Part shown: piece by piece, positions 18,731 to 39,623 of the stretch
Layout of the letters: the number at the start of each line of letters is the position of its first letter
Position numbering within the stretch: position 1 is the first letter of the stretch
Source of the DNA: Azospirillum sp. TSO22-1
Lineage (GTDB): Bacteria; Pseudomonadota; Alphaproteobacteria; Azospirillales; Azospirillaceae
Length of the DNA stretch: 64,000 bases
Direction of reading: 5' to 3'
Assembly: GCF_003116015.1 (NCBI RefSeq)
Contig: NZ_LGQZ01000077.1
Location: 1-64,000 of the forward strand
Position numbers and translations under genes: made by a program
The notes under the pieces: model-generated
Database searches by the model: none
Seen by the model: only the letters and a program-made list of their open reading frames with translations
What the model was told of the DNA's origin: nothing

Positions 18731-19825
18731 TTACGAGGCCGCCAGCGACTTGCCGGTGGCGCCCAGGTCGGCGAAGGCCTCGTCCAGGCGGGTGGCGATG
18801 CCCTTCTCGCCCTCGCGCAGCCAGACGCGCGGGTCGTAGAGCTTCTTGTAGGGCTTGCCGGTGTCCGGATCGATCTGGTGCTTGAACGCCTTCTCGTTGG
18901 TGAAGACGAAATTGCCGATGGTCGAGGCGAAGGCGAACTGCGTGTCGGTGTCGATGTTCATCTTGAACACGCCGTAACGCACCGCCTCCTCGATCTTCTC
19001 CTTCTCGGAGCCGGAACCGCCGTGGAACACCAGGGCGAGCGGCTTCTCGCCGCCGCCGTGCGTCTTCGCCACGAGGTCCTGCGAGTTCTTCAGGATCTCC
19101 GGGCGCAGCTTGACGTTGCCCGGCGCGTAGACGCCGTGCACGTTGCCGAACGACGCCGCCACCGAGAAGTGGCCGATGGAGGAGAGCACCTCATAGGCGC
19201 GCAGCACGTCCTCCGGCTGGGTGTAGAGGTGGGCGTTGTCGGCGCTCAGGTCCTCCGAGCCGACACCGTCCTCCTCGCCGCCGGTGACGCCCAGCTCGAT
19301 CTCCAGGCTCATGCCCATGGGGGCGAGGCGCTTGAGGATGCGGGCGCACTCCGCCAGGTTCTCCTCCAGCGGCTCCTCCGACAGGTCCAGCATGTGCGAG
19401 CTGAACAGCGGCTTGCCGGTGCGGCGGAACTCCTCCTCCGAGTGGGCGATCATGCCCTCGACCCAGGGGACCAGCTTCTTGGCGGCGTGGTCGGTGTGCA
19501 TGACGACGCACACGCCGTACTCCTTGGCCAGCAGGTCCACGTGGCGGGCGGCCGAGACGGCGCCCAGGACGCGCGCCTGCGCCGAATCCTTCATGCCCTG
19601 GCCGGCGTAGAACTGCGCGCCGCCGCTGGACAGCTGGATGATGACGTCGGACTTGTTGCGGGCCGCGGACTCCAGCACGGCGTTGATGGTGCTGGTGCCG
19701 ATCACGTTGACCGCCGGCAGGGCGTAGCCGCCGTCGCGGCAGGCCGCCAGGAGGGTGCGGTAGTCCTCGCCGGTGACGACGCCGGGTTTCAGCGTGCTCC
19801 GGGTGGGGGCCGTGGTCGTGCTCAT
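18731..19825 (-). CDS. fbaA: Class II fructose-bisphosphate aldolase
   Basis: A 364-residue zinc aldolase of the long (FbaA) type, which splits fructose 1,6-bisphosphate into dihydroxyacetone phosphate and glyceraldehyde 3-phosphate. HTDH at 110-113 supplies the catalytic Asp and a zinc ligand. LEIELGVTGGEEDGV, GNVHGVYAPGNVKL (zinc His) and VFHGGSGSEKEKI (zinc His and phosphate binding) follow. The C-terminal YDPRVWLREGE is typical. The ATG at 19825 has AAAGGCGG upstream; longer in-frame starts give no homologous sequence. It serves glycolysis and gluconeogenesis. Confidence 0.95.
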   Translation of the reverse strand: MSTTTAPTRSTLKPGVVTGEDYRTLLAACRDGGYALPAVNVIGTSTINAVLESAARNKSDVIIQLSSGGAQFYAGQGMKDSAQARVLGAVSAARHVDLLAKEYGVCVVMHTDHAAKKLVPWVEGMIAHSEEEFRRTGKPLFSSHMLDLSEEPLEENLAECARILKRLAPMGMSLEIELGVTGGEEDGVGSEDLSADNAHLYTQPEDVLRAYEVLSSIGHFSVAASFGNVHGVYAPGNVKLRPEILKNSQDLVAKTHGGGEKPLALVFHGGSGSEKEKIEEAVRYGVFKMNIDTDTQFAFASTIGNFVFTNEKAFKHQIDPDTGKPYKKLYDPRVWLREGEKGIATRLDEAFADLGATGKSLAAS

Positions 19826-20050
19826 GCGTTTCCGCCTTTCACTTTTGTCGGTTGGGGTTCGGCCAAGGGCCAGCCGACGGCAAGCCCAACAGCGTTTGGG
19901 GCGGGACGTTGCCCCACCGCGCGCATTTCCGCAACCGAACCGATCGGGTGAGACGTTTCGTCCACCCGGATTGGGCCTCTCTCCCGTCCCGGAGCGCCTC
20001 GGAACGATGTCCCAATTCTGCCCCCGCCCGGCCACAGCCATCTCACACCT

Positions 20051-20068
20051 ACCCCTTTCGATAGGGGT
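20051..20068. repeat. Small hairpin before the HisKA_2 kinase
   Basis: ACCCCT-TTCGAT-AGGGGT is a perfect 6-bp stem with a 6-base loop, 34 bases before the kinase start. It may be an operator or part of the leader. The rest of the 277-bp gap shows nothing clear. Confidence 0.4.
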
Positions 20069-20102
20069 GCACCATGGGCGAAAGCACGTGAGGACCACGA
20101 CC

Positions 20103-20891
20103 ATGTGGCGAGACCTTCTCCGGCGCGCCGTCGCTCCCTTCCCGCTGCCGGCCGCGGCGCCGGCGGGCACCGCCGGGTCGGCCTGGGCGCTGGCCTGCGC
20201 CGCCGCCGGGAACGGCGGGGACGACGAGTCCGAGACCGCCGCGCTGCGCGCCCGCGTCGCCGCGCTGGAGGCCGAGCTGGGCCGCGCCGAGCTGCTGCTG
20301 CGCGAGACCAACCATCGCGCCAAGAACGCCTTCGCCACCATCGCCTCGCTGGTCGCCATCGAGCTGGCCGACATCCGCGACCCGAAGGCGCGCGAGGTCC
20401 TGCAGCTGACGCAGGAGCGGCTGTCGGCGGTGGCCCTGGTGCATCAGGCCCTGCAGGGGAGCAGCGAGGACGCGGTGCTCGACCTCGGCGCGCTGCTGAA
20501 GCGCCTGGGCGGCGCCGTCGCCTTCTCCATGGGCGCGGAGGAGCGCGGCATCGAGGTGCGCATCGCCACACAGCCGGTGCCGGTGGAGGCCGGGGCGGCG
20601 CTCACCCTCGCCCTCGTCGCCAACGAGTTGCTGACCAACGCCCTGAAGTACGCCTTCACCGGGCGCAGCGGGGGCTGCGTCGAGCTGACCCTGCGCCGCC
20701 GCGCCGGCCGGCTGCTGCTGCGGGTGAAGGACGACGGCATAGGCTCCGCGCCCGCACCCGGCCGCCGGGGCGCGGCCGGCACCGGGCTGACGCTGGTCCG
20801 CCGTCTGGCCGAGCAGCTCGGCGCGCGGGTGCGCTTCGGCGGGCGCGACGGCACCTCGGTCACCGTCTCCATCCCCTGCGGCGCGCTCTGA
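20103..20891 (+). CDS. HisKA_2-type sensor histidine kinase, soluble
   Basis: A 262-residue kinase with no membrane span. The H-box is RETNHRAKNAFATIASLVAI with phospho-acceptor H71, the HisKA_2 pattern. It is followed by the N-box LVANELLTNALKYAF and glycine-rich loops DDGIGSAPAPG and GTGLTLV. The N-terminal 45 residues are low-complexity, then a short coiled coil (AALRARVAALEAELGRAELL). Such kinases often act in the alphaproteobacterial general stress or light response. It is followed at 97 bp by a SiaA-like phosphatase gene. No sensor domain is visible. Confidence 0.85.
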   Translation: MWRDLLRRAVAPFPLPAAAPAGTAGSAWALACAAAGNGGDDESETAALRARVAALEAELGRAELLLRETNHRAKNAFATIASLVAIELADIRDPKAREVLQLTQERLSAVALVHQALQGSSEDAVLDLGALLKRLGGAVAFSMGAEERGIEVRIATQPVPVEAGAALTLALVANELLTNALKYAFTGRSGGCVELTLRRRAGRLLLRVKDDGIGSAPAPGRRGAAGTGLTLVRRLAEQLGARVRFGGRDGTSVTVSIPCGAL

Positions 20892-20988
20892 GGCGCCTCC
20901 TTCCTCGGTTTGTCCCTGCGCAATTCCGTTTGCATCGCGTAAAAGAGATCGGGATGCTGATGCCGCTGGATTGTCGGAAGGGATAGAC

Positions 20989-23085
20989 ATGCCCCGCACG
21001 GGAACGCCGCGCCTGCGGCTTGGTGTCGCCGCCCGGCTGACCGCCGGTCTGGTCGGGCTGACGGTCCTCACCATCCTGGCGGCCTCGGTGGCGCTGTACG
21101 GCACGCAGGCGTTCCGCGACGGCTTCGACCGCATCGCGCTGAGCCGCTTCGGCCAGCTGGTCGCCATGGCCCACCTGACGCAACAGAGCCACAGCGTCAC
21201 CTCCGCCGGCCCGCGCATGGTCGGCGCCACCGACCGCCGCGACCTGGAACAGCAGGTCGCCAACACCCGCGACCTGTTCCGCCGGTTCGACGCGGCGGCC
21301 GGCAACCTGGTGGCGTCCGGTGCCGATCCCACGGTGGTGGCCGGTCTCACGGCCATGCGCACGCATCTGCAGGACAGCCTGAACCGGCTGGCGGCGCTGG
21401 TCGCCGACCGGCAGGACGCCGACGCCGCGCTCGCCCGCGCCATGGACGACCTCGACCGGCAGGCGCAGGATTCGCGCCGCGTGCAGAGCCGGCTCGCCGA
21501 AGTGATCACGGCGCTGACCGAGATCAACGCCAGCCAGGGCGACATCGTCGCCATCGAGGCGCAGGTGCGCAACGGCGACGTCATCCGCCGCATCACCGAC
21601 GACATGGCGCGCGCCGTCAACGTCATGCTGCGCGTCCCCAGCGTCCGCTACCCCGGCCAGCTGGCGCCGATGCTGGACGAGGTGCGCCGCCTGATCGCCC
21701 GCGTCCGGCGGGATTCGCAGGAGCTGCCGGGCGCCTTCGCCGACGGCTACGTGGCGCTGGGCAACCAGCTGAACGCCCAGGCCGAGGGCCCCGCCAGCGT
21801 CTTCGCGCTGCGCCTGCGCCAGATCGAGGTGACCGAGCAGGTCATGGCCGTGCTGAACGCCAGCAAGGAGGACCTGGACCGCTTCATCGCCAGCGTCACC
21901 CGTCAGTACGAGGCGCTGGAAGCCGACATCGCCGAGGAGCGCGGCGACTTCACCGCCTTCATCGCCAACATCTTCAACGGCCTGTTCGCCATCGCCGCGG
22001 CGGCGGTGACCGGGGCCGCGGTGATCTTCCTGTTCCTGCGCCGCCGGGTGATCGGCCGCCTGACCGGGCTGCAGCACTGCATGGTGGCGAACGCCGAGGG
22101 GCAGGCGGTGCCGATCCCCGCCGACGGCCACGACGAGATCGCCGACATGGGCCGCGCCTTCGGCTATTTCGTCGGCGAGGTCGGCCGGCGCGAGACCGCG
22201 TTGCGCGCCGCCAAGGACGAGGCCGAGCGCGCCTACGCCCAGCTGGCCTCCGCCAACGCCTCGATCCGCGAGGGCATGCGCTACGCCCAGCGCATCCAGC
22301 AGTCGCTGCTGCCCGACGTGGACGCGCACGGTGGCCTGCTGGAGGATCTGGCGGTGGCGTGGCAGCCGCTCGACGCGGTGGGCGGCGACTATTACTGGAT
22401 CGGCGCGCAGGACGGGCGCTGCATCATCGCGGTGATGGACTGCACCGGGCACGGCGTACCCGGCGCCTTCATGACCGCCATCGTCGCCTCGGCGCTGGCG
22501 CGCATCCTACAAGACCATGCCCAGGATCACGCGCACGACGACCCGGCCGGCATCCTGGCAACGCTCAACACGCTGGTGCGCGGCGCGCTGCGCCAGGATC
22601 GACCCGAGGCCACCTCGAACGACGGGCTGGACGCCGCCATCGTCGTCCTCGACCCCGCCGCCCGCCGCCTGTCCTTCGCCGGCGCCAACATGCCGCTGCT
22701 CCACGACGACGGGCAGGCGCTGCACCTGATCAAGGGCGACCGGCACAGCCTGGGCTATCGCGAGTCGCGCCCGGATTTCGAATTCCAGCGCCACGACCTC
22801 GATCTGACACAGGGCATGCGCTTTTATCTGATGACCGACGGCGTCACCGACCAGATCGGCGGCCCGACGCGCCGGCTGTTCGGCCGGCGCCGCGTGCAGG
22901 AGCTGCTGCGCGCCGGCGCGCACCTGCCGATGCAGGCGCAAGTGCGGCAATTGCTGGATGCGCTGGCCGAATACCGCGGCGAAGAGCCGCGGCGCGACGA
23001 CCAGACCTTCATCGGCTTCGTGCCGTGCCTGGTCCCGGCCGACGGTTCGGCGGAAGCCCGGCCGGCCGACGCGGTGCCCGCCTGA
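20989..23085 (+). CDS. SiaA-like membrane PP2C (SpoIIE) phosphatase with HAMP
   Basis: A 698-residue membrane protein. TM1 about 17-40, a helical periplasmic sensor about 40-325, TM2 about 330-352, HAMP about 352-405, a short coiled coil, then a SpoIIE/PP2C domain from about 430. Metal-binding motifs are AVGGDYYW (about 462-469) and VMDCTGHGVPGAFMT (about 482-496), with DGVTDQIG and RRDDQTF near the end. In Pseudomonas, SiaA dephosphorylates SiaC. SiaB and SiaC homologues lie 2 kb away, so this is the likely partner phosphatase. GGAAGGG precedes the ATG at 20989. Confidence 0.87.
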   Translation: MPRTGTPRLRLGVAARLTAGLVGLTVLTILAASVALYGTQAFRDGFDRIALSRFGQLVAMAHLTQQSHSVTSAGPRMVGATDRRDLEQQVANTRDLFRRFDAAAGNLVASGADPTVVAGLTAMRTHLQDSLNRLAALVADRQDADAALARAMDDLDRQAQDSRRVQSRLAEVITALTEINASQGDIVAIEAQVRNGDVIRRITDDMARAVNVMLRVPSVRYPGQLAPMLDEVRRLIARVRRDSQELPGAFADGYVALGNQLNAQAEGPASVFALRLRQIEVTEQVMAVLNASKEDLDRFIASVTRQYEALEADIAEERGDFTAFIANIFNGLFAIAAAAVTGAAVIFLFLRRRVIGRLTGLQHCMVANAEGQAVPIPADGHDEIADMGRAFGYFVGEVGRRETALRAAKDEAERAYAQLASANASIREGMRYAQRIQQSLLPDVDAHGGLLEDLAVAWQPLDAVGGDYYWIGAQDGRCIIAVMDCTGHGVPGAFMTAIVASALARILQDHAQDHAHDDPAGILATLNTLVRGALRQDRPEATSNDGLDAAIVVLDPAARRLSFAGANMPLLHDDGQALHLIKGDRHSLGYRESRPDFEFQRHDLDLTQGMRFYLMTDGVTDQIGGPTRRLFGRRRVQELLRAGAHLPMQAQVRQLLDALAEYRGEEPRRDDQTFIGFVPCLVPADGSAEARPADAVPA

Positions 23086-23177
23086 GTTGCTGTATCACAC
23101 AATCCAATGGCGCACACGGGAGGATGCTTCTAGTATCGTGTCACAGACGGTGACGTATCGGCGGGAGCACGGAAAGC

Positions 23178-23897
23178 ATGGTGTCGGCGGTGATAGCCGT
23201 GGTGGAGGACGAGGCCTCGCTGCGCCGCGACATGGTGGAGTACCTGCGCGGCTGCGGCTTCGACGCCATGGGCGCCAAAACGGGCCGCGAGCTGAACGAC
23301 ATCCTGGCCGCCAAGCCGGTCTCCGTCGCCATCCTCGACGTCAACCTGCCGGGTGAGGACGGCTTCACCATCGCGGCACGGCTGCGCGAGACCCCGGGAA
23401 TCGGCGTCATCATGGTGACGGCGCGCGGCACGACGGTGGACCGCGTGGTCGGGCTGGAGATCGGCGCCGACGCCTACATGGTGAAGCCGGTCGAGATGCG
23501 CGAGCTGGAGGCCCAGGTGAAGTCGCTGCTGCGCCGCCTGGAATCGGCGCCGGCGCACGCCCCGGCCGCCACCGCCCCGCCCGCCGCCGACGAGGAGCAC
23601 TGGACGCTGCATTCCACCGACTGGTCGCTGACCAGCCCCGGCGGCGTGCGCGTGTCGCTGACCAGCACCGAGATGAAGCTGGCCTCCTTGCTCGCCGCCC
23701 AGGCCCGCCAGCCGGTGTCGCGCGACCAGATCTCGCTGGCGCTCTACAACCGCCGCTGGGACCCGCAGGACCGCACCATCGATACGGTGGTCCGCCGCCT
23801 GCGCAACAAGCTGGAAAAGGCCATCGGCGAGACCCCGCCGCTCAAGTCGGAGCACGGCGTGGGCTACGTGTTCTCGGCGCCGGTGCGGACCGTCTAG
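23178..23897 (+). CDS. OmpR/PhoB-family response regulator
   Basis: A 239-residue regulator. The receiver domain (about 4-118) has acidic residues E10/D11, phospho-acceptor D54 (AILDVNLPGEDG), T81 and K103 (MVKPVEM). An Ala/Pro-rich linker (about 120-140) joins it to a winged-helix DNA-binding domain (about 143-237; LTSTEMKLASLLAAQ, then IDTVVRRLRNKLE). It follows the SiaA-like gene by 92 bp and converges with the kinase at 23901 with three bases between stops. The upstream gap has GTCAC-AGACG-GTGAC (23140-23154), a possible autoregulatory site. Confidence 0.9.
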   Translation: MVSAVIAVVEDEASLRRDMVEYLRGCGFDAMGAKTGRELNDILAAKPVSVAILDVNLPGEDGFTIAARLRETPGIGVIMVTARGTTVDRVVGLEIGADAYMVKPVEMRELEAQVKSLLRRLESAPAHAPAATAPPAADEEHWTLHSTDWSLTSPGGVRVSLTSTEMKLASLLAAQARQPVSRDQISLALYNRRWDPQDRTIDTVVRRLRNKLEKAIGETPPLKSEHGVGYVFSAPVRTV

Positions 23898-23900
23898 GGA

Positions 23901-24920
23901 TTACCCCGGCGCGACCCTCGGGAACGTCAGCGCGAACGCCGCCCCCTGCCCCGGCGGGCTCTCCACCGTGATGGAGCCCTTCAGCGGCCCGACCGCCAGG
24001 TTGTGCACGATGTGCAGGCCCAGCCCGCTGCCGCCCTCGCCGCGCCGCGTGGTGAAGAACGGCTCGAAGACGTGCGGCAGGTTCCCGGGCGGGATGCCGG
24101 CGCCGTCGTCGGCGTAGGTCAGGCACACCGTCTCCGGGTCGGGCTGCGTCACCGCGATGCGCAGCCGCCCCGCCCGCCCGTCGCCGTAGCCGTGCGTCAG
24201 CGAGTTCATCACCAGGTTGGTGAGGATCTGCGACAGGGCGCCCGGATAGCCCTCGACCATCAGGCCCGGCGGACAGTCCACCGTCACCGTGTGGTTGCCG
24301 CGCTTCAGGTTGGGCTGCAGGCTGAGCAGCGTCTCCTGCACGTAGGCGCGCAGGTCGAAGCCGCGGCGCTCGGCGCTCGCCCGGTCGACCGCCACCTGCT
24401 TGAAGCTGTTGATGAGCTGCGCCGCGCGCTCGCAGTTGGCGAGGATCAACGCCGTGGTGTCGGTGGCGGTGGCGAGGTAGCGGTTGAAGTCGCCGCGCCC
24501 CAGCTCCCCCTTCTCCACCATCGCGGTGAGCCGCGCCGTGGCGTCGGACAGGTGCGAGGCGCAGGAGACGGCGATGCCGACCGGCGTGTTGATCTCGTGC
24601 GCCACCCCGGCCACCAGGGCACCCAGCGAGGCGAGCTTCTCCTGCTGCACCAGCACGTCCTGGGCCTCGCGCAGGCGCTCGAGCGCGTCCTCGGCCTCAC
24701 GGCGGCGGCGTTCGGCCTCCTGGTTGGCGGTGGCGAGCTGCCCTTGCAGGCGGTCGCTCACCCGCACCAGCCGGCGCTGCTCGCGGTAGCTGCGCTTGAA
24801 GCCGTCCACCAGTTCGGCCAACTCCGCGCCGACCTCCGGCGCCAGCGCCGTCAGCCGGGCTTCCAGCGCCTGGGCCCGCTCGATGACCTGCTCCTCGGCA
24901 TCGAACAGATTGAAGTTCAT
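23901..24920 (-). CDS. Soluble sensor histidine kinase of the Sia-linked operon
   Basis: A 339-residue cytoplasmic kinase. An N-terminal coiled coil (about 5-100) leads to the H-box LVAGVAHEINTPVGIAV with H108. The ATPase domain has N-box TNLVMNSLTHGYG, G1 YADDGAGIP, F-box FEPFFTT and G2 GGSGLGLHIVHNL. There is no sensor or membrane segment, so input probably comes from a partner. Its ATG overlaps the siaC stop, and siaB is just upstream. In Pseudomonas this position holds the SiaD diguanylate cyclase, so here the output seems to be phosphotransfer. It resembles the kinase at 37983 closely. Confidence 0.9.
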   Translation of the reverse strand: MNFNLFDAEEQVIERAQALEARLTALAPEVGAELAELVDGFKRSYREQRRLVRVSDRLQGQLATANQEAERRRREAEDALERLREAQDVLVQQEKLASLGALVAGVAHEINTPVGIAVSCASHLSDATARLTAMVEKGELGRGDFNRYLATATDTTALILANCERAAQLINSFKQVAVDRASAERRGFDLRAYVQETLLSLQPNLKRGNHTVTVDCPPGLMVEGYPGALSQILTNLVMNSLTHGYGDGRAGRLRIAVTQPDPETVCLTYADDGAGIPPGNLPHVFEPFFTTRRGEGGSGLGLHIVHNLAVGPLKGSITVESPPGQGAAFALTFPRVAPG

Positions 24921-25318
24921 GAGTCGCGGTCCGCCGCCTCGCGCAGGCTGAAGGCCACGTGCTCGAGGTCCTCCGAGAAGTCCTCGCCGAACTCGCGCAT
25001 GGTCTCGTCGTCGGGATCGCAGTACCAGTCGACGGTGACCGGACGGCCCTGGCGCGCCGCCGCCTCCAGCAGCTGGAAGATGGTCATCAGCACCTTGGCG
25101 CTGGAGCTGTTGAAGTAGACCAGCTCGATGGCGACGTGCAGCGGCGCGTCCGACGGCTCGGCCAGATGCTCGCGCAGCGCCGCGACCACCGGGCCGAACA
25201 GCGTCGCCACGTCGTCGGGATAGGATTCGCCGCGCAGCGCCAGCCGGCCGGAGGCAAAGTCGAAGTCGATCTCGGGCGTCCGCGGGGTCGCCGGGATGGT
25301 CAGCCGTTCCGTGGCCAT
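24917..25318 (-). CDS. siaC: SiaC-family regulatory phosphoprotein (DUF1987)
   Basis: A 133-residue protein of the DUF1987/SiaC family. Hallmarks are the N-terminal TPRTPEIDFDF, GESYPDD and VYFNSSSAKVLMTIFQLLE. The known SiaC phosphorylation site is a Thr in a similar LNTSS motif (from memory); here the equivalent appears to be Ser71. SiaC is phosphorylated by SiaB, dephosphorylated by SiaA, and in its unphosphorylated state activates its target. It lies one base after siaB and overlaps the kinase downstream, so a kinase target is plausible. Confidence 0.87.
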   Translation of the reverse strand: MATERLTIPATPRTPEIDFDFASGRLALRGESYPDDVATLFGPVVAALREHLAEPSDAPLHVAIELVYFNSSSAKVLMTIFQLLEAAARQGRPVTVDWYCDPDDETMREFGEDFSEDLEHVAFSLREAADRDS

Positions 25319-25319
25319 G

Positions 25320-25880
25320 TCAGATGCGAACCTTGAGGCAGAAGAAGGTCTTGTCGGTGTCGGTGGCGGCGAAGTCGTACTCGATCGGCTCGCTGGCGCG
25401 CCGGGCGATCTCGATCAGGCCGATGGTGGCGCCGCGGCTGCCCTCGTCCGGCGCCTCGCGCAGCTGCTCGCGGTAGTGCGCCTTGATGCCGTCCTTGTCG
25501 AGGCCCTTCAGGAAGTCCAGCCGCTCGCGCAGGCGCGGCACGTCGCCGTTGCGCACGGTGTTGCCGCAGACGATGAAGAACTTCCCGCCCTCCATGCCGA
25601 TGGTGACCATGCCGGCGCTCAGCTCGATGGTGCGGCCGTCGTTGGCGACGATCTTCTCTGCCGAGTAGCGGATGATGTTCTGCATCTGCTCGACGAACAC
25701 CGAGAAGACGCGGCGCACCGTCGGGCCGTCCGCATCCTCCAGCGTCATCTTCTCACGTAAAGCCTCGCCGAGGGAGAACAGGATCCCCTCCGACAGATAG
25801 CCGCTGAACGAGAAGATGATGCCCTTGGAATCCAGCTCGCGCTTGAACGCGGCGTATTCCTGACCGAGCGTCGCTGCCAT
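25320..25880 (-). CDS. siaB: SiaB-family protein kinase
   Basis: A 186-residue protein with a GHKL-like fold. FVEQMQNIIRYSAEK contains the Asn of the N-box, and a glycine-containing segment EGSRGATIGLIEIAR serves as the ATP-lid region. SiaB phosphorylates SiaC in Pseudomonas. Length and IFSFSGYLSEGILFSLGEAL near the start match the family. The ATG at 25880 has AAGAGG nine bases upstream; the TTG at 25889 has no spacing for it. It heads the three-gene operon siaB-siaC-kinase. Confidence 0.85.
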   Translation of the reverse strand: MAATLGQEYAAFKRELDSKGIIFSFSGYLSEGILFSLGEALREKMTLEDADGPTVRRVFSVFVEQMQNIIRYSAEKIVANDGRTIELSAGMVTIGMEGGKFFIVCGNTVRNGDVPRLRERLDFLKGLDKDGIKAHYREQLREAPDEGSRGATIGLIEIARRASEPIEYDFAATDTDKTFFCLKVRI

Positions 25881-25936
25881 TTCCGACAACCTCTTGCCCC
25901 GACAACCCTTTGCGATGTGCGCCGACTATCTCACCA

Positions 25937-27706
25937 TCACCGGCGGCCGTCCACCGGCGGCTCCAGCGGCAAAAGGATGCGGAAGGTGGAGCCCTCGCCC
26001 ACCGCGCTCTCCACCGTGATGGCGCCGCCGTGCAGCTGCACGATCTGCTGCACCGTGTGCAGGCCGATGCCGGTGCCCGGATGCCCGCCGGCGTTGCTGC
26101 CGCGGAAGAAGCGGTCGAAGACGCGCCCGACCTCGTTGGCCGGGATGCCGCAGCCGCGGTCGCCCACCTCCAGCACCGCCAGCGGGCCGTCGCGCCGGCC
26201 GCGGATGGTCACCTGCGCCGTCCCGTCCGAATACTTGACCGCGTTGCCGATCAGGTTGGCCAGCACGAGGCCGAGCAGGTCCGCGTCCCCCGACACCGAT
26301 CCCGGCAGGTCCGCCACGTCCAGCGCGATGGTGCTTTCCGGATGCGCGGCGCGGTGCATCTCCGCCGTGGTGCGCACCAGGGCGGCGAAATCCACCGGCC
26401 GGCGGTCCAGCGTCAGGTTGCCGGCCTGCAGCCGCTCGTCGGTCAGGTAGGAGTCGATCAGGCCGGTCAGCCGCTGCACGGCGGTGCGGATGACGCCCAG
26501 CCGCTCCAGCCGCGCCGCCTCCCCGCTCTCGACCCGCAACGCCAGCAGCTGCGCGGCGCTGTCGATCACCGCCAGCGGCGTGCGGAACTCGTGCGACACC
26601 ATGGTGAGGAACTGGCGCTGCTGCGCCTTGGCCTCCAGCTCGCGTTCCAGCGCGCGCTCCACCCGCTCCTTGGCGGCGAGCAGCGCCTTCTGGTTGGCGG
26701 CCAGTTCGGCCGTCCGCTCGGTCACGCGCTGCTCCAGCGAGCGGTTCAGCGCCAGCAGGTCCTCGTAGAGGCAGACGTTGTCGAAGCCGATGGCGACGCG
26801 GGCACAGAACAGCTCCAGCAGCCGGTGGTCGTCCTTGCCGTAGGGCTCCGGCCGCTCCAGGACGAAGGCGGTGGCGCCGTGCTCCAGTGTACGGAACATC
26901 AGCACGCAACGCTCGGCCCCAAGGACGCTGCGCTCCGTCGCGAAGGCCTCGGCCACCGCGGCGGCGAGGTCCGGTGGCAGGGCGGCCTCGGCCGGCTGGC
27001 CGATTGCGGCGCCGTAACGGCCGCTGCCGGCGACCACGGTCAGTACCCGCGCTCCGTCGCCGCGCTCGGCCGGCCGGCAGGCGACCACCGAACCACCGGC
27101 GTTGTCGACCACCCGGCCCAGCTGCTCGACCAGCCGCTCGACCAGCGTGCGCATGGAGCGCGTCTCGAACAGCGGCGGCGTGGCGTTGACGATCCGCTCC
27201 AGGCCCTGGCGGTGCCGCTCGATGGTGACGATGTCGCGCCACGAGCGCAGCGCGCCGACCAGCGCGGTGAACAGCTTCTGCGCCGTCAACTCGCTCTTGG
27301 CCTTGTAGTCGTTGACGTCGTAGGCGATCACCACCTCGCGCTCCGGCGCCTGCCCGGGCTGGCCGGTGCGCAGGATGATGCGCATGCGGGCGTTGCCCAG
27401 CTCCTCACGGATGTGGCGCACCAGCTGCAACCCTGCATCGTCGGTCTCCATCACCACGTCGAGCAGCGCCACCGGGATGTCCGGCCGCCCGGCCAGCACG
27501 GCGCGGGCGTCGGCCGCCGACAGCGCCTTCACCATCTCGAACGGCCGCCCGTCGAACTCGAAGTCGCGCAGCAGGACCGAGGTCATCTGGTGCACCTGCG
27601 GGTCGTCGTCGACGACCAGCACCGGCCACGGCACCGCCGCCGGGCGCCCGGCCACCGTGAGGTCGGCCGCCTCGTCGTCGAAAAACAGGGGATCCTCGAT
27701 CGCCAT
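25937..27706 (-). CDS. Receiver-DUF3369-histidine kinase
   Basis: A 589-residue cytoplasmic protein. The receiver domain (about 27-150) has D33-D35, phospho-acceptor D83 (LLDVVMETDDAG) and K135 (DYKAKSEL). A DUF3369 GAF-like domain (about 165-315) follows, then a coiled coil (about 318-365), the H-box FLTMVSHEFRTPLAVI with H372, and an ATPase domain with NLIGNAVKYS, GDRGCGIP and GTGIGLHTVQQ. The order means another kinase can phosphorylate it and alter its own kinase activity. It ends 57 bp from siaB, on the same strand, and diverges from an unknown operon. Confidence 0.9.
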   Translation of the reverse strand: MAIEDPLFFDDEAADLTVAGRPAAVPWPVLVVDDDPQVHQMTSVLLRDFEFDGRPFEMVKALSAADARAVLAGRPDIPVALLDVVMETDDAGLQLVRHIREELGNARMRIILRTGQPGQAPEREVVIAYDVNDYKAKSELTAQKLFTALVGALRSWRDIVTIERHRQGLERIVNATPPLFETRSMRTLVERLVEQLGRVVDNAGGSVVACRPAERGDGARVLTVVAGSGRYGAAIGQPAEAALPPDLAAAVAEAFATERSVLGAERCVLMFRTLEHGATAFVLERPEPYGKDDHRLLELFCARVAIGFDNVCLYEDLLALNRSLEQRVTERTAELAANQKALLAAKERVERALERELEAKAQQRQFLTMVSHEFRTPLAVIDSAAQLLALRVESGEAARLERLGVIRTAVQRLTGLIDSYLTDERLQAGNLTLDRRPVDFAALVRTTAEMHRAAHPESTIALDVADLPGSVSGDADLLGLVLANLIGNAVKYSDGTAQVTIRGRRDGPLAVLEVGDRGCGIPANEVGRVFDRFFRGSNAGGHPGTGIGLHTVQQIVQLHGGAITVESAVGEGSTFRILLPLEPPVDGRR

Positions 27707-34305: not shown

Positions 34306-36864
34306 CTACTCCGCCGGCAGCAGGTCCTGGTTGAACAGGGTCTCCAGGTCGGCGGGCGACACGGCGCGGCTGACCAGGTGGCCCTGGATCTCGTCGCAGT
34401 TGGCCTGCTGCAGCACCTTCACCTGCTCCACCGTCTCCACGCCCTCGGCCACCGCGCGCATGCCGAGCGCGTGGCACAGGCCGATGATGGCGCGCACCAG
34501 CTCGCCGTCCTGGGTGGCGCCGCGCAGGCCGGCGATGAAGCTGCGGTCGATCTTCAGCGCGTGGATCGGCAGCTTGCGCAGCGCGCTGATGCAGGAATGG
34601 CAGGTGCCGAAATCGTCGATCGACACCGCCACGCCCAGCCGGTGCAGCCGCTCGATGGCGTCCGCCACCTCGGCCGGGTGGTCGAGCAGCGCCGCCTCGG
34701 TCAGCTCGATCTCCAGGTGCTGCGGCGCCAGGCGCGTGTCGGACAGCACGCGGCCGACCACGTCCACCAGCTCGGCGGTGGCGAACTGCCAGGGGGAGAC
34801 GTTGACCGACATGCGGATCGGCGGCAGCCCGCGGTCCTGCCAGCTGCGGTTCTGCCGGCACGCCTCGGTCAGCACCCACTCGCCGATGGCCGGCATCAGG
34901 CCCATGCGCTCGGCCGTCGGCAGGAAGGACGCCGGCAGCAGCACGCCCATCTCCGGATGGTTCCAGCGGATCAGCGCCTCGGCGCCGATCATCCGGCCCG
35001 AGGTCATGTCCACCTTGACCTGGTAGGCCAGCGTGAACTCCCGGTTCTCCAGCGCGGCGCGCAGCCGGCTCTCGGCGACCAGCAGCTCGTGGCTGCGCGC
35101 GTTGAGCTGCGGCGAGTACACCTGGAAGCCGTTCCGCCCGCCCTGCTTGGCCTGGTACATGGCGAGGTCGGCGCACTTCAGCAGCGCCTCGGGGCTGTCG
35201 CCGTCCTCCGGATAGACGGCGATGCCGACGCTGGTGGTGACGTTGACCCGCCGCCCGCCGATCTCCACCGGGCGCTGGACGGCGCCGATCGCGCGCTCCG
35301 CCACCTTGGCGGCCTCGGCCGGGTCGGCCAGTTCGGAGAGCACCAGCACGAACTCGTCGCCGGCGATGCGGGCCACCGTGTCGCCCTCGCCGACGCAGCC
35401 GGACAGGCGGCGCGCCATCTCCGCCAACACACGGTCGCCCGCGTCGTGGCCCAGCGTGTCGTTGATGCGCTTGAACAGGTCGAGGTCGAGGAACATCACC
35501 GCCAGCGGCTTGCCGTGCCGGTGCGCGTTGGCGATCGCCTGCCCCAGCCGGTCCATCAGCAACCGGCGGTTCGGCAGCCCGGTCAGGCTGTCGAAGTAGG
35601 CGAGGTTCTTCACCTCCTCCTCGTAGCGCTTGCGCTTGGTGATGTCGGAGAAGATGGCAGCGTACTTGGTGATGCGCCCCGCGGCGTCGCGGATGGTGTT
35701 GATGCTCAGCCACTCGGCGTACAGCTCGCCGTTCTTGCGGCGGTTCCAGATCTCGCCCTGCCAGTGGCCGCGGTCGGTCAGCTCCTGCCACATGCGGCCG
35801 TAGAACGCCTCGTCGTGCAGGCCGGACTTCAGGATGCGCGGGCTCTTGCCCAGCGCCTCCTCCGCCGTCCAGCCGGTCAGGCGGGTGAAGGCGGGGTTGA
35901 CGTATTCGATGACGCCGCCGGCCTCGACGATGATGACGCCCTCCAGCGACGCCTCGATCACCTGCCGGGCCAGGAACAGATCCTGGTGCGAGCGCATCAG
36001 CGCCTCGTCGCGCTCGCGCAGCGTGGCGTTGAGCTGGGCGATGTACTCGTACTGCAGCGTCGTCAGGATGTCGGCGAAGGACAGCAGACCGACGAAGCCG
36101 CCGCCCTCGTCGCGCACCGCCAGATGGCGGATGCCGTGCTTGGCGAACAGGTTGCGCGCGGTCAGCAGCGGCGCGTTGGCCTTCACCGAGACCAGCGGCC
36201 GGCTCGCCACGGCGCCGACGGTGCCGGCGTGCCGGCGCTTCGCGGCGAGGCGGACAAGGTCACGCTCGGTCAGCATGCCGGCGCCGTGGTCGGCGTCCTC
36301 CAGCACGATGGCGGCGTCGGCGCCGGCCGCGCGCATCCGCCGCGTCGCCTCGGCCAGCGGGATTCCCGGCGGCAGCAGCGTCGCCTCGCGCGTCATCACC
36401 GAGCGCACGTCGCGCAGCGTCAGGTACTGCTCGACCCCGTGGTTCAGCACGATGTCGGTCTGGCTGAGCATGCCCGTCGGCAGCCCCGCGTCGTCCACCA
36501 CCAGCAGGTGGCGCACCCGCTCGTTCTTGAAGGCCAGGCCGGCTTCGCCGACGCTGGCCGACGCGGCGATGGTGCGCACCGGGCTGGCCATCGCCTCGCG
36601 GATCGGCCGCTCGAAGCCGGCGGGGCTGGAGAAGTCTATGGCCAGCGCGTCGCGCTCGGTCCAGATGCCGACGGCGTGCCCGTCCTCGACGACGATGATC
36701 GAGCTGAGATGCGCCTCGGCCATGCGCTGCGCGGCGTCGCCGACCGGGGTGTCCGACGCGCACGACAGCAGCTCGCGCGACGCGATGTCGCCGACGCTGC
36801 GGCCGGGCACCCCGCCCACCGCGTCGTCCACCGAATCCGCCGCCGCATCCACCATGTCCGACAC
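34306..36864 (-). CDS. CBS-PAS-GGDEF-EAL cyclic-di-GMP signalling protein
   Basis: An 852-residue soluble protein. Two CBS pairs (about 22-145 and 155-275) precede a PAS domain (about 300-410), GGDEF (about 425-590) and EAL (about 600-850). The active-site motif is AGDEF at 501-505, a form seen in active cyclases. The EAL domain keeps EALIRW (629) but departs in loop 6: DDFGTCHSC where DFGTGYSSL is usual; YQVKVD replaces YQPKVD. Phosphodiesterase activity may thus be weak or lost. CBS pairs suggest control by an adenine nucleotide. Confidence 0.92.
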   Translation of the reverse strand: MSDMVDAAADSVDDAVGGVPGRSVGDIASRELLSCASDTPVGDAAQRMAEAHLSSIIVVEDGHAVGIWTERDALAIDFSSPAGFERPIREAMASPVRTIAASASVGEAGLAFKNERVRHLLVVDDAGLPTGMLSQTDIVLNHGVEQYLTLRDVRSVMTREATLLPPGIPLAEATRRMRAAGADAAIVLEDADHGAGMLTERDLVRLAAKRRHAGTVGAVASRPLVSVKANAPLLTARNLFAKHGIRHLAVRDEGGGFVGLLSFADILTTLQYEYIAQLNATLRERDEALMRSHQDLFLARQVIEASLEGVIIVEAGGVIEYVNPAFTRLTGWTAEEALGKSPRILKSGLHDEAFYGRMWQELTDRGHWQGEIWNRRKNGELYAEWLSINTIRDAAGRITKYAAIFSDITKRKRYEEEVKNLAYFDSLTGLPNRRLLMDRLGQAIANAHRHGKPLAVMFLDLDLFKRINDTLGHDAGDRVLAEMARRLSGCVGEGDTVARIAGDEFVLVLSELADPAEAAKVAERAIGAVQRPVEIGGRRVNVTTSVGIAVYPEDGDSPEALLKCADLAMYQAKQGGRNGFQVYSPQLNARSHELLVAESRLRAALENREFTLAYQVKVDMTSGRMIGAEALIRWNHPEMGVLLPASFLPTAERMGLMPAIGEWVLTEACRQNRSWQDRGLPPIRMSVNVSPWQFATAELVDVVGRVLSDTRLAPQHLEIELTEAALLDHPAEVADAIERLHRLGVAVSIDDFGTCHSCISALRKLPIHALKIDRSFIAGLRGATQDGELVRAIIGLCHALGMRAVAEGVETVEQVKVLQQANCDEIQGHLVSRAVSPADLETLFNQDLLPAE

Positions 36865-37982: not shown

Positions 37983-39623
37983 TTGGCCGCCGCCGCGCCC
38001 ACCGACACCCTTCCCGCCGCCCGCGCCCCGACGCGACGCCCGATTCGCCGCCCGATTCGCCTGGGCCCGCTGATCCTGGCGGTCAGCGTGCTGATGCTGA
38101 CCGTGGTGGGGGTGCTGTTCCTGGTCATCGCCCACCAGCAGCGCGCCATGCAGACGGCGGCGCAGGACGCGCACGACCGCGTCGCCCCGATGATCCTGGA
38201 ACGCCAGCGCGCCGCGGTGAACCTGGAGCGCTTCAAACGCTACGGCGCCGTCACCGTCAACGCCGACCAGCCGCGCCAGCGGCGCGAGGCGCTGCTGGCG
38301 GCGCAGGCACTGGCCTACCACCCGTCCTTCCTGGTCGATCCGGCGCTCAGCCGGCAGATGACCGAGGCCTACGGCGTGCTGCGGCGGGCCAACGCGCTGC
38401 AGGACGAGGCCGACCGCCTGCGCGCTGGCGCCGCCCCGGCGCACGCCGACCTCGGCCCCGAGGCCGCCGCGGCGCTGCGCCGCGAAGCGGAAGCGCTCGA
38501 CGAGCGGGCGGAGGCGATGTGGCAGGAGACCATCGCGGCGCTGGACGTCACCGCCGACCGGCTGTCGGTGGACGTCTCGCTGCTCACCGCCGGCCGCTTC
38601 GCCGAGATCCGCGACACCGCGCAGGGCGTGTCGGCGGTGCTGTCGGCCGGCTTCGTGACGGTGTTCGCGCTGCTGGCGCTGGCGGTGTGGCTGGCGCGCC
38701 GGCACATCGTGCGCCCGGTGCAGCGCGCGGCGCGGGCGCTGACGGCCATCAGCGACGGCGAGCGCGGCGTGCGCCTGCCGCCCGGCGGCACCGTGGAGAC
38801 GGACACCATCTTCCGCGCCGTCGAGAGTCTGGACCGCACCATCACCGACCTGCGCACGGCGCAGAGCCATCTGGTGCAGACCGAGAAGATGGTGGCGCTG
38901 GGCTCGCTGGTGGCCGGGGTGGCGCACGAGATCAACTCGCCGCTCGGGGTGGCGGTCACCGCGTCGTCGCTGCTCGCCGACCGCACGCAGGCGATGGCGG
39001 AGCGCGTCGCCGCCGGCCCGATCCGCCGCGCCGACTTCGACGACTACCTGCACACCGCTACCGAGGTGACCGCCAGCGTGCAGGCCAACCTGGACCGCGC
39101 CGCCCGGCTGATCAGCAGCTTCAAGCAGGTCGCCGTCGACCAGACCAGCGAGGACCACCGCGCCTTCCCTCTCGCCGCCTACATCGGCGAGGTGATGCAG
39201 AGCCTGTCGGTCAGCCTGCGCAAGGCCAAGCTGGAGGTCGCCGTCGATTGCCCGGACGACATCGTGGTCGAGGGCTACCCCGGCGCCTTCGGGCAGCTGC
39301 TCACCAACCTCGCCATGAACTCGATCCTGCACGCCTTTGAACCGGGCCGGGGCGGCCGGCTGTCGGTGGCGGTGCGGGCGGAAGGCGATCAGGTGGAGCT
39401 GCGCTTCGCCGACGACGGAAAGGGCATTCCGCCCGAGTTGCGCGACCGCGTCTTCGAGCCGTTCTTCACCACCGCCCGCGGCCAGGGCAGCACCGGCCTC
39501 GGCCTGCACATCGTGTTCAATCTGGTGACCCAGCGCCTGAAGGGCCGCATTGCCCTGGAGAGCGAGCCGGGCCGCGGCACCACCTTCGTCATCCGCTTTC
39601 CGCGCAGCGTGCCGCCGGAGTGA
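37983..39623 (+). CDS. Membrane sensor histidine kinase
   Basis: A 546-residue kinase. TM1 about 27-50 (LGPLILAVSVLMLTVVGVLF), a helical periplasmic region about 50-215, TM2 about 217-240, a HAMP-like linker, the H-box LVAGVAHEINSPLGVAV with H315, then N-box LTNLAMNSILHAF, G1 ADDGKGIP, F-box FEPFFTT and G2 GSTGLGLHIVFNL. Its kinase core shares long stretches with the Sia-linked kinase at 23901. The start is TTG at 37983 with GAGG about nine bases before. The preceding solute-binding protein probably modulates its periplasmic region. Confidence 0.88.
   Translation: MAAAAPTDTLPAARAPTRRPIRRPIRLGPLILAVSVLMLTVVGVLFLVIAHQQRAMQTAAQDAHDRVAPMILERQRAAVNLERFKRYGAVTVNADQPRQRREALLAAQALAYHPSFLVDPALSRQMTEAYGVLRRANALQDEADRLRAGAAPAHADLGPEAAAALRREAEALDERAEAMWQETIAALDVTADRLSVDVSLLTAGRFAEIRDTAQGVSAVLSAGFVTVFALLALAVWLARRHIVRPVQRAARALTAISDGERGVRLPPGGTVETDTIFRAVESLDRTITDLRTAQSHLVQTEKMVALGSLVAGVAHEINSPLGVAVTASSLLADRTQAMAERVAAGPIRRADFDDYLHTATEVTASVQANLDRAARLISSFKQVAVDQTSEDHRAFPLAAYIGEVMQSLSVSLRKAKLEVAVDCPDDIVVEGYPGAFGQLLTNLAMNSILHAFEPGRGGRLSVAVRAEGDQVELRFADDGKGIPPELRDRVFEPFFTTARGQGSTGLGLHIVFNLVTQRLKGRIALESEPGRGTTFVIRFPRSVPPE

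Follow-up and report, generated by a model that had tools for sequence, protein, structure and literature searches.

A 64,000-nucleotide stretch of Azospirillum sp. TSO22-1 (contig NZ_LGQZ01000077.1, positions 1 to 64,000; hereafter the window) encodes a soluble histidine kinase (HK) next to a SiaA-like phosphatase and homologues of the Sia proteins SiaB and SiaC. The SiaC switch known from Pseudomonas appears, judging from protein sequences, to plug into the HK in Azospirillum and its relatives, because the HK bears the same helical docking site that is gripped in Pseudomonas. The HK gene (23901-24920, minus strand) encodes 339 amino acids, with a stalk where a sensor would be expected, and overlaps siaC (24917-25318, minus strand) by 4 nt (ATGA). 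Hydropathy analysis of the HK revealed no strongly hydrophobic stretch of 19 residues (best mean Kyte-Doolittle value 1.23), and no GGDEF gene was detected within the cluster with Pfam. These observations agree with the original prediction, according to which a soluble HK overlapping siaC holds the position of the diguanylate cyclase SiaD. The HK scored 85.5 bits with HATPase_c and 19.2 bits with HisKA, the latter under the cut-off of 26.9. Its H, N and D/G boxes are all present (HEINTP from residue 108, NLVMNSL, DDGAGIP, FEPFFTT and GSGLGL), and residues H108, N235, N239, D271, G273, G275, G297, G299 and G301 were invariant in an alignment of 47 members.

As described for the SiaC-SiaD crystal structure (PMC8457831), SiaC T68 inserts between two stalk helices and bonds S82 and Q86 of SiaD, further SiaD contacts being K77, V78, R80, I81, D83 and R84. 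The N-terminal helix of the window HK holds a SiaC-binding motif of the SiaD type, RRLVRVSDRLQ, in which SDRLQ occupies residues 55-59 and S55, D56, R57 and Q59 are equivalent to SiaD S82, D83, R84 and Q86. The predicted docking stalk as a whole spans residues 33-72 (24705-24824, minus strand), and a stalk profile built from GGDEF proteins only matched the HK with an E-value of 6.2e-14. The earlier suggestion that SiaC may switch a kinase therefore gains a concrete predicted docking site. Among the first 101 loci, SD[RKQM]xQ was found in 33 of 35 single HKs adjoining SiaC, the remaining two carrying variant stalks detectable by profile. On these sequence features, it is highly probable that the HK is a client of SiaC. 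A natural membrane-sensor comparison is provided by a HAMP histidine kinase encoded at 37983-39620 of the window, whose catalytic core is 54% identical to that of the stalk-bearing HK over 256 residues and which carries a hydrophobic N-terminus and a HAMP domain in place of the docking stalk.

The distribution of the stalk was assessed with a profile, A1, of 40 columns and 52 rows taken from SiaC neighbours. In the window genome (7.35 Mb in 250 contigs, completeness listed as 100%, one SiaC, 46 GGDEF matches), the single A1 match was this HK, with an E-value of 1.1e-14, and none of the 46 GGDEF matches carried the stalk. The possibility that a SiaD homologue elsewhere in this genome co-occurs with SiaC, raised with the original prediction as an argument against it, was rejected, the HK being the only stalk match. 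Across 82 family genomes, stalk and SiaC were present in the same 45, and the stalk was absent from all 37 SiaC-less genomes. Of 398 phylum genomes, 59 contained both, eight SiaC only (three of these SiaC matches being weak or partial), one the stalk only (E-value 9e-4) and 330 neither. A point that counts against taking these figures at face value is that the rows of A1 come partly from genomes on which it was run; the informative part is therefore the near-absence of the stalk in SiaC-less genomes and elsewhere in the window genome. In addition, a hold-out profile was prepared from 37 GGDEF stalks, located using A1, which contains HK rows, and excluding operons with both an HK and a GGDEF protein. 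This profile recognized 74 of 75 HKs picked by position alone beside SiaC, and three of 94 other HKs, all three within SiaC loci.

Two alternative views of the HK bear directly on these tests. The HK could be a mere neighbour, the real target of SiaC being a diguanylate cyclase encoded elsewhere, as might be argued from the 46 GGDEF matches of the genome and from the fact that SiaC action is proven with SiaD only. This is very improbable, given that no further stalk match exists in the window genome, that stalk and SiaC share the same 45 of 82 genomes, and that a stalk-bearing HK adjoins SiaC in 36 of the 41 family loci described below. Similarly, the stalk could be a generic coiled coil or an S-helix, its resemblance to SiaD being convergent, and portable helices joining signalling domains are indeed known (S-helix, PMC1592074). 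We regard this as hardly credible: the GGDEF-trained profile separated SiaC-adjacent HKs from other HKs, stalk matches in SiaC-less genomes amounted to 0/37 in the family and 1/331 in the phylum, and the S-helix is recognised by an ERT signature and sits between two domains, whereas the stalk has SDRxQ and is N-terminal.

To place the window in a wider context, gene neighbourhoods of SiaC were analyzed in the window, in 40 of 63 other family matches (a search at the level of the taxonomic order covering the same 82 genomes as that of the family), in 60 of 82 other phylum matches, and in a third set derived from the 80 best contig matches to a Ser-type SiaC query, which over-represents relatives of the window. 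In the resulting 166 de-duplicated loci, the stalk protein adjacent to SiaC was an HK in 62 cases, a GGDEF protein in 43, both in 12, an HD-GYP protein in 18 and a class III cyclase in 13, these domain classes being backed by Pfam on samples. HK clients were found in 36 of 41 loci of the family set (24 with the HK alone and 12 with the HK together with a GGDEF protein), 2 of 60 of the phylum draw and 36 of 65 of the contig-search set. Within Rhodospirillales, the HK form is common in Azospirillum and Magnetospirillum-type bacteria, and it is infrequent in the rest of the phylum; the named relatives with the same locus are Azospirillum species. Kinases replacing SiaD beside DUF1987 genes, for which the original prediction had proposed a survey, are thus the rule in the family but rare phylum-wide, so that their rarity, named there as a possible argument against the prediction, applies in part. 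The cores of stalk-bearing HKs are of three dissimilar kinds, with 24-34% mutual identity, and the stalk was found also on GGDEF, class III cyclase and GAF/HD-GYP proteins. We consider it probable that SiaC is a general plug-in regulator of diguanylate cyclases, histidine kinases, hybrid kinases, class III nucleotide cyclases and HD-GYP proteins, acting through one transplantable stalk whose helical register is fixed. Such stalks would have been transferred several times to new catalytic cores, and where an HK and a diguanylate cyclase of a single operon both received one, the switch would branch into two outputs.

Several variants of this arrangement were observed. In a second Azospirillum Sia locus (type 2; L091, L093, L095-L097, L099, L101, L103, L104, L107, L119 and L123), the HK and the GGDEF protein of one operon both bear the stalk, and the SiaC is of the Thr type and groups with Pseudomonas-type SiaC. 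Stalks of GAF/HD-GYP proteins (L109, L142, L163) and class III cyclases (L118, L156, L164, L181, L182) mostly read SDRxE, not SDRxQ. Two stalk proteins of differing kinds lie near one SiaC in L304 (Magnetovibrio blakemorei) and in L125, and a divergent stalk hybrid kinase lies near SiaC in L132. Divergent SiaC copies were found at L169:5089-6369, at the end of a 426-residue open reading frame and with no recognised SiaB, and at L335:800 (56 bits, in G056). No natural fusion of SiaC to a client was seen among annotated open reading frames.

The position of the docking site relative to the catalytic domain was regular. The docking Ser and the catalytic His were separated by 53 residues in 61/61 HEINTP-type HKs, and by 23 residues in 12 HEFRTP-type HKs and one HDLRNP-type HK. 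In GGDEF clients, the separation between the docking Ser and DxLT was 21, 28, 35, 49 or 56 residues, all multiples of 7, in 55/55 cases, a spurious earlier match being skipped in two of them. An AlphaFold2 model of the window HK showed a single helix from residue 28 to 136, in which the stalk runs into the DHp domain, with a mean predicted local distance difference test score (pLDDT) of 80, values of 87-88 for the stalk blocks, and a predicted template modelling score of 0.56. The fixed spacing and the continuous modelled helix are consistent with transmission along a coiled coil. In a SiaC tree (120 columns, many weak forks), proteins clustered by client class, with 21 changes compared with 66.8 in shuffles. 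Similarity of SiaC and similarity of the stalk were correlated for HK-GGDEF pairs (r 0.77, with 0/5000 shuffles as high; r 0.59, 0/3000, for Ser-type only).

A number of observations speak against a SiaC switch operating on the HK through a common stalk. SiaD contacts R74 and D91 are not conserved in the HK, and D79 and R103 of SiaC are replaced by Q82 and T107 in the window SiaC. The HK model is weak at about residues 90-120 (pLDDT ~52-59), falling to ~52 near 90-110. No stalk client was found in 18 of the 166 loci, 17 of those in the phylum draw. The correlation between HK and GGDEF clients could arise from shared descent, and SiaC-stalk similarities of HK versus cyclase or HD-GYP clients were uncorrelated (r 0.03 and 0.13, with 2087 and 644 of 5000 shuffles as high, respectively). 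Taken as a set, the published contact pairs showed no enrichment in residue covariation (p = 0.27, effective number of sequences 64). Finally, most Magnetospirillum-type loci show no SpoIIE domain in the stretch examined, where it was present in 3 of 31.

SiaC of the window aligned with the solved P. aeruginosa SiaC structures 6k4f/6kko with an E-value of 1.5e-23, and its predicted phosphorylation site is Ser71, in the motif YFNSSSAK, equivalent to T68 of P. aeruginosa. Ser instead of Thr at this position had been put forward as a peculiarity of the locus. This did not hold, as Ser was found in 148 of the 166 loci and Thr in 18; Thr is therefore not defining for the wider family, and a Ser site was rejected as a sign of rewiring, being the family norm.

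The genes of the cluster are laid out on two strands. The minus strand carries the genes for a REC-DUF3369-HisKA-HATPase kinase (hereafter REC-DUF3369-kinase; 25937-27706, 589 amino acids), located directly upstream of siaB, SiaB (25320-25880), SiaC and the HK, and the plus strand, in convergent orientation, those for the SiaA-like phosphatase and an OmpR-type response regulator (RR; 23178-23897), found after the phosphatase gene as had been predicted. Stop codons of the RR and HK genes are 3 nt apart. The genes originally named are all contained in 20989-25880, but the REC-DUF3369-kinase, a sixth conserved gene, lies outside that interval. The locus thus provides two potential receivers near the HK, the OmpR-type regulator and the REC-DUF3369-kinase, and a REC-GGDEF gene following the HK in 10 of 31 non-Azospirillum HEINTP loci is another possible one.

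In the mechanism that we propose, the membrane phosphatase SiaA and the kinase SiaB would set the phosphorylation of SiaC at Ser71, and unphosphorylated SiaC would dock through the SiaD-type motif on the coiled-coil stalk at the N-terminus of this sensorless HK. Docked SiaC would switch the activity of the HK, most probably by holding in place the parallel coiled coil that continues into the DHp helices, and would thus serve as the sensor of the HK. Gene gain and loss suggest that the REC-DUF3369-kinase would most likely accept the phosphate of the HK on its receiver and then drive the OmpR-type regulator. A Sia-type partner switch with the HK as client of SiaC and a two-component output, by whichever route, is predicted with good confidence; the sign of the effect is less secure. 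By analogy with SiaD, SiaC is somewhat favoured to be an activator of the HK: SiaC is described to activate SiaD through dimer stabilisation (PMC8457831), which argues against its being an inhibitor that, for example, locks a phosphatase state. Inhibition is the less likely alternative; in its favour, the helix registers required by HEINTP and GGDEF outputs differ (53 versus multiples of 7).

The route of the signal was evaluated from the presence of its candidate components. Regulator orthologues (at least 45% identity) were found in 65 of 74 HK-type loci, in three gene orders, and in 0 of 92 non-HK-type loci. Five family genomes (G014, G027, G028, G030 and G045) contain the regulator at 68% identity or more (79% in G030) without a type-1 SiaC locus. 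In these five, the same locus shows the regulator convergent with the REC-DUF3369-kinase, SiaA being absent to one side of the regulator and SiaB, SiaC and the stalk-bearing HK to the other; the FtsH-like flank is the same in all five and the HWE-kinase flank in four. No SiaC was found anywhere in G030, a type-2 locus is present in three of the other four genomes, and G045 has one SiaC and two stalk matches. Since two separate blocks are absent together, SiaA is tied to SiaB, SiaC and the HK, and retention of the other two genes suggests that the regulator is the partner of the REC-DUF3369-kinase. This constant companionship points to a relay and not to a pair of two proteins, so that the regulator is not simply the partner of the HK. 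In type-2 loci, ordered SiaA-SiaB-SiaC-HK-GGDEF, the core of the stalk-bearing HK had its best non-type-2 matches in REC-HK (48.9%) and REC-DUF3369-HK (44.3%) cores, other HK cores giving at most 38% in shorter or weaker matches; a SiaC stalk thus seems to have taken the place of the receiver. On the strength of the retained pair and of this exchange, a relay from SiaC to the stalk-bearing HK, the REC-DUF3369-kinase and the regulator is proposed, shortened in type 2, and we lean, with some reserve, towards it rather than towards direct transfer from HK to RR. Direct transfer, in which the SiaC-controlled HK itself phosphorylates the convergent regulator and the REC-DUF3369-kinase is a second, independent input, is a tentative alternative. 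It is suggested by the adjacent stop codons and the conservation of this order in 28 of 30 family HEINTP loci, and by the type-2 loci, which show no REC-DUF3369 kinase and in which the stalk-bearing HK is the local kinase, an RR orthologue lying close by in 11 of 12; type 2 is indeed equally readable as support for it, to the detriment of the relay. Against it stand the five genomes in which the regulator stays with the REC-DUF3369-kinase at a locus without the stalk-bearing HK, and the core of the type-2 HK, which is of the REC-DUF3369-kinase type and therefore provides no precedent for a HEINTP core.

The window locus shares with SiaABCD of P. aeruginosa a PP2C phosphatase, a SiaB kinase, a SiaC phosphoprotein and an output enzyme with a SiaC-binding stalk encoded right after siaC. 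It differs in that the output is an HK and not a GGDEF enzyme, that one stalk motif was found in the HK instead of two, that the SiaC phosphorylation site is Ser and not Thr, and that the locus includes a receiver-kinase and an OmpR regulator around which the gene order is split. SiaC corresponds to DUF1987, described as structurally related to STAS (PMC8457831). According to the same source, HsbRA-HsbD and BgrSTUWV-BgrR likewise place a signalling enzyme under the control of a phosphorylated STAS-like protein; their outputs, by contrast, are diguanylate cyclases. Like the S-helix, described as a portable helix of ~40 residues upstream of HK, cyclase, GGDEF, HD-GYP and PP2C domains (PMC1592074), the stalk precedes diverse domains; unlike it, the stalk carries SDRLQ (SDRx[QE] in the family), has no upstream domain and tracks SiaC. 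Searches of an article library, preprints lying outside its scope, on DUF1987, the SiaC family, SiaABC/SiaABCD, and SiaC together with histidine kinases or other output enzymes listed no paper that reports a SiaC-controlled HK in its title or displayed abstract. Sensorless soluble histidine kinases are reported to be common in Azospirillum (PMC4618731), and our results give one of them a definite predicted input, in which Ser/Thr partner switching would be joined directly to two-component signalling. The paper on the SiaC-SiaD structure remarks on a possible modulation of neighbouring proteins by DUF1987 proteins (PMC8457831); this becomes a testable rule, namely that an SDRx[QE] stalk marks a SiaC client. 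The stalks would also amount to a naturally occurring collection of coiled-coil inputs that could be swapped between signalling enzymes.

The presence of SiaA-like, SiaB and SiaC homologues at the locus, as originally predicted, was confirmed with Pfam and NCBIfam. The SiaA-like membrane phosphatase, encoded on the plus strand at 20989 (ATG; alternative TTG at 20971)-23085, is a candidate SiaA on account of its SpoIIE/PP2C features, a weak HAMP and its hydrophobicity. Its SpoIIE domain is clear (Pfam, 92.1 bits; motifs GGDYY, DCTGHG, TDGVTD and RRDDQT), HAMP scored 17.5 bits, under the cut-off of 25, and two hydrophobic stretches lie at about residues 25 and 338 in the numbering of the TTG-started protein. 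With the NCBIfam SiaA equivalog it scored 239.3 bits, over the C-terminal half only, against a cut-off of 700. SiaC scored 137.3 bits with PF09345 (cut-off 24.5) and 99 bits with the narrower NCBIfam equivalog, below its cut-off of 150. SiaB (DUF6272), whose start may be ATG at 25880 or TTG at 25889, scored 210 bits with NF038262 (cut-off 85), 148.8 bits with DUF6272 and 111.3 bits with the equivalog NF038264, below its cut-off of 225. The OmpR-type regulator scored 76.3 bits with Response_reg and 64.2 bits with Trans_reg_C. The REC-DUF3369-kinase, assigned with Pfam, has receiver motifs VVDDDP, LLDVVM and YKAK, and its HisKA domain contains SHEFRTP. Elsewhere in the window, a CBS-PAS-GGDEF-EAL protein without the stalk, one of the 46 GGDEF matches of the genome, is encoded at 34306-36864, and a HisKA_2/HWE-type kinase is encoded just upstream of the SiaA-like gene, at 19773-20891 if the start of the longest open reading frame is used.

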